Assembly (NCBI RefSeq): GCF_900176275.1
Contig: NZ_FWXD01000026.1
Span: forward strand, 1 to 48,274
From: Andreprevotia lacus DSM 23236
GTDB taxonomy: Bacteria > Pseudomonadota > Gammaproteobacteria > Burkholderiales > Chitinibacteraceae
Length of the DNA: 48,274 nucleotides
Reading direction: 5' to 3'
This document shows positions 5,675-27,445 of the stretch, piece after piece. Every line of letters begins with the position of its first letter. The stretch's first letter is position 1. The notes below the pieces were generated by a model. That model was not told the origin of the DNA, did not search any database, and saw nothing but the letters and a program-made list of their open reading frames with translations. A program made the position numbers and the translations under genes.

Positions 5675-5765
5675 TGGCGGAGAGAGGGGGATTCGAACCC
5701 CCGATAGGCTATTAACCTATACACGCTTTCCAGGCGTGCGACTTAAACCACTCATCCATCTCTCC
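5675..5765 (-). tRNA. tRNA-Ser (GGA anticodon)
   Basis: Read leftward from 5765, the gene starts GGAGAGATGG and ends CTCTCCGCCA, giving a 7-bp acceptor stem and an encoded CCA. The anticodon stem CGCACGCC/GCGTG frames the loop CTGGAAA, with anticodon GGA. A long variable arm (TATAGGTTAATAGCCTAT) and the T loop GGTTCGAATCC are typical of tRNA-Ser. It lies downstream of serS in the same direction but has its own promoter and terminator. Its 3' end faces the accessory block, the usual side for island integration. Confidence 0.97.
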
Positions 5766-9433: not shown

Positions 9434-10132
9434 TTACTTGGTCATGACTTCCTGCACACCCTTCACTTCGATTTCAACGCGACGATCCGGCGACAGGCAC
9501 TCGATCAGCGCCTTGCGGGCCTTGATCTTGTTGCAAGTATCGCCAGTCACCGGGTCGGCTTCGCCGCGCGATTCAGCGTGGATCTTGTCTGCCGGTGCGC
9601 CCTTGGTCACCAGGTAGTCAGCCACGGCCTTGGCACGACGGTAGCCGAGGTCGAAGTTGTACTTGTCGCTGCCGAGGCGGTCGGTGTAACCCACGACGAC
9701 GGCTTGGCCTTCCTTCGGATCCATGCCCTTCACTTCGTCATACAGCTTGTCGAGAGCATCCTTGCCTTGCGGCTTCAGGGTCGACTTGTTGAAGTCGAAC
9801 AGCACGTCGGTGCGCAGTGTGAACTTCTTGCTCTTCACGACCGGGGCAACCGGGGTCGGCTTCACTTCCGGCTTCACTTCCGGCTTCGGTGTTACGACCG
9901 GGGCAGCCTTGGTCGCCTCAACATAGCCCGGGCAGCCCTTCACGATCTTGGCTGCGGACCAGGTGCCGGTTTGCCAGCATTCGCCGATGCCGTTCTTGAC
10001 CACGCCTTCCGGGTTTTCAGCCGAAACGTTGGTCGAGTTGGTCACATAAGCATCAGTAGCGGCGTAAGCCGATGCAGTCATGCCCAGTGCAGCAGCGATG
10101 GCAAGGCTGGAGAGCGTTTGTTTGAGCAGCAT
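9434..10132 (-). CDS. OmpA-family outer-membrane/peptidoglycan protein, RmpM-like
   Basis: A protein of 232 residues with a signal peptide ([15 protein letters not shown]). A short N-terminal region follows with GIGECWQTG, characteristic of neisserial RmpM/class 4 proteins, then a Pro-rich hinge with the repeat PEVKPEVKP. The C-terminal OmpA/MotB domain at about residues 105-225 shows [27 protein letters not shown] and [11 protein letters not shown]. It has no eight-stranded barrel, so it is probably a periplasmic protein that tethers porins to peptidoglycan. The ribosome site ACAAAGGAGAA is very strong. The same region could pair with the candidate small RNA at 26859-26944, an inference discussed in the findings. 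Confidence 0.9.
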
Positions 10133-10173
10133 GGAGATTCTCCTTTGTTAGACGTGTTGGCACTTCTTACTTG

Positions 10174-25618: not shown

Positions 25619-26710
25619 TTATTGCTGGGTGACTGGCGGAATGTGCGCCGTGACGAAGAAGGGCAGGCCGTCGGTATCCAGATCGGGCTGCACGGCCTCG
25701 ATCAGCTGGATATCGTCCTGGCGGCATTCGCGGAACAATTCATCGGCGAAGTGGTGGATGCGCTCGGCCGAGTCGAGTGGCGCCAGACGCCAGACAAAGC
25801 CTTCCCAGCGCTCCTTGTCCTCACGCATCGAATAACTGATGCGGATTTCGCCACCCTCATGGCTGGCAATTGTGACCACCGGGGTGTGGCCGTTGCTGCG
25901 TATGCTGCGCAGCGCGTTGCTGGTAGCCACCTGCAAACGGGTTTCCAGCTGCGTAACGCGGCCGGTTTCCAGCGCAGCCAGCCAGCTCAGTGGCACGCGT
26001 GGAATCGGGAACAAGGTCACGCCCGGTGTCTTGAGTGCTTCGCCCAGCTTTTGCTGCAGCGCCAGCGTCCACTGGCCCGGTTGGGCATTGAGCTGGATGG
26101 CCATTGCCGCACCGCGCTGCTGGATGGCCACGCCAACCAGATAGCGCTGGAACACCGCCTCGTCCTTGAACTTGAGCGGCGTGGCCTCGAACGCGCGCGG
26201 CAGGCCCGCAGCGGTATCCTGCAACTGATCGCGCCAGCGTGCCAGCTGCGGCGGGCTGATGCCAGCCAGCTGATCCGGCGTCAGCAGATCGCCCGCCAGC
26301 CATACGTCGGCACCCTCGGCAATCAGGCCGCCGCTTTGCAGCGTGGCGCGGACGGCAGCCGGGTCGATATGGTGAGGCAGGGTGACTTCACCCTTGGCAC
26401 CGGCCACCAGGATGACCGGGATGGCGAACGGCACGGCCCAGCACGCTGCATCAGCGGGGGGATTTTCGACGGCTTCGCGCAGCAGCGCCCACAGCGCCTT
26501 GTAGGCATCCTGCGAAGGTGCTTGCGTCAGTGCGGCATTCAAACCGGCGTTGTCGTTGCTCAGAATGAGTTCTTCAAACAGGCCGGCCAGCGCCGCGCGC
26601 TTTTGCACGGCTACATTGCCGTCGGCTTCGGTCAGCCAGGACATCAGTGCGCGGATGACGGGGTTTTGCGCGTTCACGCGCGGGTACAGGCGGGGGTCGG
26701 GCAGATACAT
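25619..26710 (-). CDS. Conserved-looking protein of unknown function, 363 residues
   Basis: I do not recognise a family. The protein starts MYLPDPRLYPRVNAQNPVIR and has no signal peptide or membrane segment. A helical N-terminal third (AALAGLFEELILSND) leads to a middle with ACWAVPFAIPVILVAGAKGE and a C-terminal alpha/beta part (TPVVTIASHEGGEIRIS). It is acidic and of normal composition. It lies 13 bases before the ferredoxin gene, suggesting one operon, and it is divergent from the candidate small RNA. Confidence 0.75.
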   Translation of the reverse strand: MYLPDPRLYPRVNAQNPVIRALMSWLTEADGNVAVQKRAALAGLFEELILSNDNAGLNAALTQAPSQDAYKALWALLREAVENPPADAACWAVPFAIPVILVAGAKGEVTLPHHIDPAAVRATLQSGGLIAEGADVWLAGDLLTPDQLAGISPPQLARWRDQLQDTAAGLPRAFEATPLKFKDEAVFQRYLVGVAIQQRGAAMAIQLNAQPGQWTLALQQKLGEALKTPGVTLFPIPRVPLSWLAALETGRVTQLETRLQVATSNALRSIRSNGHTPVVTIASHEGGEIRISYSMREDKERWEGFVWRLAPLDSAERIHHFADELFRECRQDDIQLIEAVQPDLDTDGLPFFVTAHIPPVTQQ

Positions 26711-26822: not shown

Positions 26823-26852
26823 TTGACTATTTGGCCGTTACTTGGGTAAAGT
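26823..26852 (+). promoter_or_regulatory. Promoter of the candidate small RNA
   Basis: TTGACT (26823-26828), an 18-base spacer and TAAAGT (26847-26852) form a near-consensus sigma-70 promoter. Transcription would start at about 26858-26860, just before the hairpin at 26863-26887. It lies in the gap between the unrecognised leftward gene and wbuC. Confidence 0.6.
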
Positions 26853-26858
26853 ACCTAC

Positions 26859-26944
26859 TCTGTTGATGCGCACGCTTAGCGCATTGATAGTTCTCCTTTG
26901 TAGATGTTGTTGGTAGCCCGGGGCGTGTGTTCCGGGTTTTTTTT
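26859..26944 (+). ncRNA. Candidate small RNA with anti-Shine-Dalgarno stretch
   Basis: An RNA of about 86 nt is predicted between a promoter and a strong terminator. The first hairpin pairs ATGCGC (26866-26871) with GCGCAT (26879-26884), extended by wobble and AU pairs, around ACGCTTA. An unpaired stretch follows (26888-26914) containing TTCTCCTTTG, the exact complement of a strong ribosome site. A GC hairpin then ends in eight T residues, the U-tail expected of Hfq-bound RNAs. The same region could instead be a wbuC leader: a leaderless 16-codon frame (MRTLSALIVLLCRCCW) starts at 26866. No known RNA family is claimed. Confidence 0.5.
26915..26944 (+). terminator. Rho-independent terminator 16 bases before wbuC
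   Basis: CCCGGGG (26917-26923) pairs with TTCCGGG (26930-26936) around CGTGTG and is followed by eight T residues (26937-26944). It stands between a promoter and the wbuC start, so it must end either the candidate small RNA or an attenuated wbuC leader. Confidence 0.88.
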
Positions 26945-26959
26945 CGCCGGAATCCCCCG

Positions 26960-27445
26960 ATGTCCCAACCCCGCCTCATCGATCAGGCCACGCTTGCCGC
27001 GCTGGCTGCCGAAGCCGCACAGGCGCCGCGCCTGCGCAAGAACCAGAATTTCCACGCCGACAATGCAGATGCCTGTCATCGCTTGATCAATGCGCTGCAG
27101 CCTGGCACCTACATTCAGCCGCATCGCCATCTGGATGCGGGCAAGTCCGAGTCCATCATCGCGCTGGCTGGCAGCATGGGCGTGCTTTACTTCGACGAGG
27201 GCGGCCGCATCGAGCAAATCTGCGTGATCGCGCCGGGCGGCGCGGTGGTTGGCGTGAACGTACCGGCCGGCACCTTTCACAGCCTGGTGGCGCTCACCCC
27301 CGATTGCGTGTTTTTCGAGAGCAAGGCCGGCCCCTACGCGCCGCTGGAAACGGCAGAAAAGGCAGCTTGGGCGCCAGCAGAAGGAGAGCCCGCTGTCAGC
27401 GCTTATCTGCAGCATATGTTGGTGCATTTCAACGGTCTGACTTGA
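26960..27445 (+). CDS. WbuC-family cupin protein
   Basis: A protein of 161 residues from the ATG at 26960. It matches the WbuC cupin-fold metalloprotein family: RLIDQATLAALAAEA, ARLRKNQNFHADNADACHRLINAL-type text near residue 30, the metal-binding PHRHLDAGKSES, and a second motif FHSLVALTPDCVFFESKAGPY. Homologues occur in O-antigen and other surface-polysaccharide clusters, but none is adjacent here. The ribosome site is weak (CCGGAAT) and a strong terminator lies 16 bases upstream, so how it is transcribed is unclear. Confidence 0.88.
   Translation: MSQPRLIDQATLAALAAEAAQAPRLRKNQNFHADNADACHRLINALQPGTYIQPHRHLDAGKSESIIALAGSMGVLYFDEGGRIEQICVIAPGGAVVGVNVPAGTFHSLVALTPDCVFFESKAGPYAPLETAEKAAWAPAEGEPAVSAYLQHMLVHFNGLT

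Follow-up and report, generated by a model that had tools for sequence, protein, structure and literature searches.

A one-site relative of the NmsR small RNAs in Chitinibacteraceae, with an ompA-like mRNA as candidate target

The window analysed here, a whole stretch of 48,274 nucleotides from contig C60 of the 4.6-Mb assembly of Andreprevotia lacus DSM 23236 (Chitinibacteraceae, Neisseriales in the NCBI taxonomy), carries a conserved, structured gene that displays homology and synteny with the NmsR RNAs, has one anti-Shine-Dalgarno (anti-SD) site where these have two, and is absent from three genera of its own family. Judged by its sequence, the stretch is almost certainly the gene of a small regulatory RNA (sRNA), and the decisive evidence for such a gene is comparative. 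The named known counterpart is NmsRA/NmsRB of Neisseria, also designated RcoF/NgncR_162/163 (Rfam RF02877), of which the window RNA is a divergent syntenic homologue, shortened and keeping one ribosome-site-blocking segment.

Taken as a whole, we consider it probable that this is a one-site, NmsR-descended, trans-acting anti-SD sRNA, with ompA as its chief predicted target. A sigma-70 promoter would drive an RNA of about 86 nt that stops at an intrinsic terminator and acts in trans, its ancestry lying in the NmsR/double-hairpin anti-SD family of Betaproteobacteria; the loss of 11 nt between two TTTCTCCT repeats would have fused anti-SD1 with anti-SD2 and eliminated the middle stem-loop, so that a single exposed site remains, with a TGTTGTTGGT-like extension particular to this lineage after it. 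Pairing with mRNA leaders over the Shine-Dalgarno sequence and the bases upstream of it would block ribosomes and repress translation, the chief predicted target being the ompA-like mRNA. Blockage of ribosome sites in trans is the most likely activity of this RNA.

Architecture and conservation of the RNA

The locus comprises the following elements:

26823..26852, plus strand: promoter TTGACT-18-TAAAGT, read directly
26859..26944, plus strand: predicted sRNA gene of ~86 nt, with a putative start
26860..26890, plus strand: 5' hairpin (SL1) of 12 bp
26889..26914, plus strand: 26-nt single-stranded region, holding the invariant TTCTCCTTTGTAGATGT
26891..26900, plus strand: single anti-SD site TTCTCCTTTG, read directly and unpaired in folding
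26915..26944, plus strand: intrinsic terminator, whose hairpin, the second here, corresponds to the third stem-loop of NmsR
25619..26710, minus strand: divergent neighbour of 363 aa, matching neither Pfam nor NCBIfam families at E 0.001
26960..27445, plus strand: wbuC-family cupin (TIGR04366), downstream, context only

The -35 box TTGACT (26823-26828) and the -10 box TAAAGT (26847-26852) are separated by an 18-base spacer and constitute the single sigma-70-like site found on both strands between positions 26000 and 28000 (mean of 0.2 in shuffles). Further, the TTGAC of the -35 box is identical in 21/21 loci, in upstream regions that have otherwise diverged at most positions. For the 86-nt RNA, the folding energy is -31.2 kcal/mol, compared with -21.0 +/- 2.9 in 200 shuffles (z -3.49, no shuffle being as good), with a mean unpaired probability of 0.86 along the anti-SD stretch. 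The terminator consists of a stem at 26915-26938 and eight T at 26937-26944; a terminator scan by itself was unexceptional, with 3 found against 1.6 expected. Promoter, 5' hairpin, exposed TTCTCCTTTG and eight-T terminator thus all lie where the preliminary description of this DNA had placed them, as direct reading and folding agree.

A blastn search with a 136-base query revealed the homologous RNA in 21 of 100 genomes, all of them Chitinibacteraceae and corresponding to 21 of the 43 genomes of this family. The same 21 were recovered by a model, R1, that was built from 20 of these loci, its family matches being therefore obtained by construction; each genome displayed one R1 match at E<0.01 (21/21), which indicates that there is no tandem sibling. 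Seventeen consecutive nucleotides, TTCTCCTTTGTAGATGT (26891-26907), are invariant in 20/20 aligned rows (drawn from the 21 loci, with L013 left out) while both hairpins vary. Compensatory changes in both hairpins, which had been proposed as a check, are present: both-sided changes affect 5 of the 12 SL1 pairs and 4 of the 10 terminator pairs. In SL1, 89.4% of cells are paired, compared with 38-50% with slid partners (23 rows, 20 of them distinct, comprising 17 family and 6 NmsR-type rows, with four near-copies left out); in the terminator, the corresponding values are 94.9% and 5-68% (18 of the 21 family rows, with three near-copies left out). In folding, the anti-SD site is exposed with a mean probability of at least 0.74 in 20/21 family RNAs, the exception being L011, which refolds and has this site mostly paired (0.24 unpaired). 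Minimum-energy folds contain two stem-loops, SL1 and the terminator, in 20/21 family RNAs.

In a collection of named genomes, the core pattern occurred in 17 stretches: 13 from eight genera (Silvimonas, Amantichitinum, Andreprevotia, Jeongeupia, Chitinilyticum, Formivibrio, Chitiniphilus and Chitinolyticbacter), one from a proteobacterial MAG that is itself one of the family genomes, and three from unrelated bacteria, for which about two are expected by chance according to our estimate. The 22 family genomes without the RNA make up three genera (g6, g7 and g11), where neither R1 nor RF02877 found it; the core pattern yielded 6 sites in 5 of these genomes, none inside such an RNA as judged by eye.

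Relation to NmsR and to the double-hairpin RNAs

The preliminary description had proposed a trans-acting type of sRNA with an exposed anti-SD sequence, akin to the neisserial sibling sRNAs, which agrees with a gene conserved in 21/43 family genomes and with its predicted function; its remark that it knew of no named family with this sequence finds no support, given the homology with RF02877, which lies below the cut-off of that family. At their own cut-offs, Rfam models called no family at the sRNA locus. With relaxed thresholds, RF02877 (NmsRb) aligned end to end (model positions 1-91, SL1 and terminator included) with 23.7 bits against a cut-off of 52, and its best score within Chitinibacteraceae, 41.2, is also below this gathering cut-off. 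Among the 21 genomes with the RNA, the model recovered this locus in all but G002 and G009 (19/21), and it matched nothing in the 22 without. When 150 whole genomes were searched at E<=1 with stricter filters, 6 exceeded the cut-off, all outside Chitinibacteraceae; sub-cut-off matches were also found in 2 of 14 control genomes. Conversely, R1 matched the NmsR-type loci L024, L025 and L026 with E values from 4e-6 to 5.5e-5 (in 73 kb), and L023, L027 and L028 with 0.0013 to 0.0066, all of these loci having been preselected by RF02877.

Synteny points in the same direction. The divergent 363-aa gene adjoins the sRNA in 20 of the 21 family loci (L022 being the exception) and, in other families, stands beside 6 of 22 loci: five of the six over the RF02877 cut-off (L024-L028), with wbuC following in L027 and L028, and one of the 16 below it (L035). 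The gene is absent beside the remaining over-cut-off locus, the Neisseria-type L023. This common neighbour, together with the reciprocal RF02877 and R1 matches, supports orthology both by place and by sequence.

SL1, the ATAGTTTCTCC and TTTCTCCTTTGTAGA core and the terminator are common to NmsR and the window RNA. However, NmsR has two anti-SD sites and three stem-loops and occurs in Neisseria as tandem siblings, whereas the family RNA has one site in 21/21 loci, two stem-loops and a single copy. NmsR-type RNAs read GTTTCTCCTCTATTTCTCCTTTGTAGA, that is, anti-SD1 and then a small stem-loop, TCTAT[TTCTCCTTTG]TAGA, bearing anti-SD2. In the family RNA, the sequence is GTTTCTCCTTTGTAGATGTTGTTGGT, with one T fewer in the window (GTTCTCC), and the removal of 11 nt between TTTCTCCT repeats converts the former sequence into the latter. 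From this we infer an 11-nt deletion, under which the TAGA of the family RNA would be a relic of the missing middle stem. The TGTTGTTGGT-like extension is peculiar to the Chitinibacteraceae RNA.

Published work reports that the NmsRs repress six enzymes of the TCA cycle, with gltA, sdhC, prpB, prpC and sucC among their targets, that both anti-SD regions are required for five of six targets, and that NmsR levels increase without RelA (PMC5362039); the gonococcal siblings are described with three stem-loops and with repression of the first-found targets through ribosome-site blocking (PMC9973317). The Betaproteobacteria also harbor double-hairpin or toxic sRNAs (RF02278; bdhR1, S17) that carry CU-rich anti-SD sequences between hairpins, as here, although with two sites, GTCTCCTCC...CCTCCTT, against one in the window sRNA, which scores 14.8 bits with RF02278 (cut-off 50). 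The resemblance of the Burkholderia double-hairpin RNAs to the NmsRs has already been remarked (PMC5688073). Bordetella S17 is processed to 67 nt, has a 27-nt core common across Betaproteobacteria and was likened to bdhR1; neither Neisseria nor NmsR was met as a word in that text (PMC11722255). Since L025 and L027 are each matched by RF02877 and, just below its cut-off of 50, by RF02278 (48.5 and 44.5 bits), the two families look like one superfamily. NmsR of Neisseria would thereby be linked to the double-hairpin/S17 RNAs of Burkholderiales through a common core and Rfam matches, and the NmsR-type RNAs of several families would be further tied by their common neighbour gene. Titles and the beginnings of abstracts among the literature matches listed, with few subscription journals included, contained nothing on this RNA in Chitinibacteraceae or on a one-site NmsR.

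The window genome also has a canonical two-site RF02278 RNA, L289 (G000:C28:1165-1228; 52.3 bits), upstream of genes reading as rplM, rpsI and argC. At E<=1, RF02278 matches were obtained in 43/43 family genomes but also in 8/14 controls, and exceeded the cut-off in 8/43; the two-site sequence was present in 20/20 loci read from nine genera, among 30 loci returned (those of g10 and g11 being unread). In other families, G068 carries an over-cut-off NmsR-type RNA (L024) together with a two-site RNA of RF02278 appearance (L286), both kinds thus coexisting outside Chitinibacteraceae, and G144 carries three NmsR-like RNAs below the cut-off (L284, L285 and L030) that are not in tandem.

An ompA-like candidate target

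The best predicted target lies in the window itself:

9437..10132, minus strand: OmpA-family gene (PF00691)
10136..10163, minus strand: part of the ompA leader whose predicted pairing with the single-stranded region spans the Shine-Dalgarno sequence (-34.4 kcal/mol)

This leader was picked as the best of twelve AAAGGAGA-N-ATG sites in the window genome, one of which is the sRNA's own complement. Two bulges apart, its predicted pairing covers almost all of the 26-nt region. At -32.8 kcal/mol it ranks first among 285 sampled leaders, whose mean is -13.9 (sd 3.9) and of which the runner-up reaches -22.6; this ranking leaves out a two-codon frame opposite the sRNA. The number of leaders expected by chance to reach the ompA energy genome-wide is 2.7 with a Gumbel fit; a normal fit gives 5e-10 per gene. 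The other 20 genomes with the RNA served as the test, with a single consensus sRNA used for all. Mean z values by genus were -4.2 (g1), -2.2 (g5), -2.2 (g2), -2.6 (g4), -1.3 (g10), -1.7 (g8) and -1.7 (g3) with the RNA, and +0.3 (g6), -0.15 (g7) and +0.35 (g11) without it, so pairing exceeds background in seven of the eight genera with the RNA and in none of the three without. In the eighth genus, g9, OmpA is present in several copies; z values were +0.05, -0.58 and -1.17 for the best protein matches, and other copies pair better. Its mean of -1.3 was obtained with the copies first chosen, when, from eight candidate rows in three genomes, one per genome was kept after seeing the pairing and not as the best protein match, five being dropped.

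With g9 excluded, all 18 genomes with the RNA lie at or below -18.0 kcal/mol and all 22 without it at or above -17.0, the mean with the RNA being -21.5 (p 3.7e-8, kinship ignored). With the best g9 protein matches included, the means are -20.7 and -13.8 (p 4.3e-8, kinship ignored), and all 26 rows give p 5.9e-7 (kinship ignored). Shine-Dalgarno strength is alike in the two groups (-7.3 and -6.6). Seven other genes (gntR, sdhC, sdhD, sdhA, sdhB, sdhE and gltA) differ by 0 to 3 kcal/mol, compared with 7 for ompA, although the controls sdhA, sdhB and sdhE lean the same way.

The two-site RNA of the window genome does not favour ompA (z +0.5). In nine genomes from outside the family that have NmsR-like RNAs (six over the RF02877 cut-off and three below; G068 has two OmpA matches, of which the longer was taken), ompA pairing is at background in eight, the remaining one, G054, ranking second of 285. 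From both results, the pairing looks specific to the window-type RNA and to Chitinibacteraceae. Outside the window's genus, the ompA pairing is interrupted by loops, and a genome's own sRNA pairs slightly better with ompA than foreign ones do (mean z -2.37 against -2.10), a weak difference. On these pairing predictions, ompA is a candidate that we consider somewhat less likely than not to be a true target. MicA and RybB are enterobacterial sRNAs that repress outer-membrane proteins; the likeness to them is the predicted pairing over the ompA Shine-Dalgarno sequence, without a claim of homology, and unlike them the window sRNA has a sigma-70-type promoter.

A different reading of the same sRNA makes it a general metabolic regulator of central carbon and amino-acid genes, as NmsR is, with the ompA pairing incidental. 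The NmsR targets cited above speak for it, a short anti-SD fits many leaders, and sdhA, sdhB and marginally sdhE lean in the direction of ompA (p 0.0018, 0.023 and 0.05). Conversely, the family RNA does not favour by pairing energy the gltA and sdhC leaders that NmsR represses: these leaders, the two NmsR targets compared, do not separate the genomes that have the RNA from those that lack it (MWU p 0.55 for gltA and 0.51 for sdhC), sdhC is at background on average, and gltA pairs a little more strongly than background in both groups, leaving both genes unsupported as retained NmsR targets. We regard this general regulator as rather unlikely.

Returning to the ompA-directed reading, the RNA may, within Chitinibacteraceae, have acquired an outer-membrane protein gene as its new target. 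A fuller history, which we find conceivable and yet doubtful, would have one site lost by repeat deletion and a 3' extension gained, the RNA re-aimed from central metabolism to ompA, the leader co-evolved with it and its pairing gone where the RNA was lost, and the two-site paralogue left with the old work. With relatives that have one site, two sites or no such RNA all in a single family, and ompA as a named candidate target, the group would constitute a natural experiment on the second anti-SD site.

Near-perfect 17-nt sites (at most 2 mismatches, the sRNA itself excluded) showed no clear excess, with 11 among the 21 genomes that carry the RNA and 6 among the 22 that lack it; those with a start codon no more than 14 nt away and a frame of 60 codons or longer numbered 6 and 3. 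Near-matches to the complement of the sRNA core occur in single relatives in the leaders of L091, L185, L189 and L192, whose products read by eye as a UxaA-like hydratase, an M48-like protease, a bacteriohemerythrin-like protein and an HPr-like protein. At L089 (G029), ACATCTACAA, complementary to the core, occurs twice upstream of a gene with a product starting MSQVTLGGNPVP. In 6/6 genomes of g1 and g8, the ompA-like gene (9437-10132 in the window) and the sRNA (26859-26944) share a contig, at a distance of 16-27 kb.

Neighbouring genes and absence of the RNA

The 363-aa gene is present in 22/22 RNA-free family genomes, with wbuC within about 0.3 kb of it in 13/13 genomes of g6 and g11 and at about 1.1 kb in one of nine of g7; two of the three RNA-free genera thus keep the locus otherwise. 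R1 applied to these 22 loci gave one weak, chance-like match (15.3 bits, E 0.46). Since the RNA adjoins the same 363-aa gene in other families, the sequences favour loss as the likelier reading of its absence from g6, g7 and g11. A quick tree of 40 of the 43 genomes (G031, G037 and G041 absent) requires at least two changes in presence or absence; some of its placements are odd (G001 is separated from its genus, and G010 sits on a long branch), and it was used solely for the statement that there was more than one change. RNA presence is clustered on this tree, so the genomes are not independent.

This neighbourhood also bears on whether the stretch is a leader or attenuator acting in cis on wbuC and ending in a terminator by chance. 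In the window, wbuC begins 16 nt past the T tract, and it lies downstream in 14/21 loci; however, it is missing within 1.5 kb in the other seven, where the core is unchanged, and 14 of the 22 RNA-free genomes have it near the 363-aa gene. We discard the cis leader as highly improbable. A 16-codon peptide gene or a chance sequence is the least credible of all, to the point of being negligible: an ATG frame of that length exists in the window, and Silvimonas-type loci and L012 have another open ATG frame of 20-35 codons, but the 16-codon frame is found in 1/21 loci (the window, and 0/20 others), the other frames vary in length or are missing, and both hairpins co-vary. The preliminary description, which had asked whether conservation follows that frame or wbuC instead of the hairpins, is refuted on neither point.

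A match of DUF805b to the minus strand of SL1 (19.5 bits against a cut-off of 35.6, E 0.0035 for 351 bases) was taken as chance. Elsewhere, the window holds a tRNA gene at 5678-5765 on the minus strand (Rfam, 56 bits).
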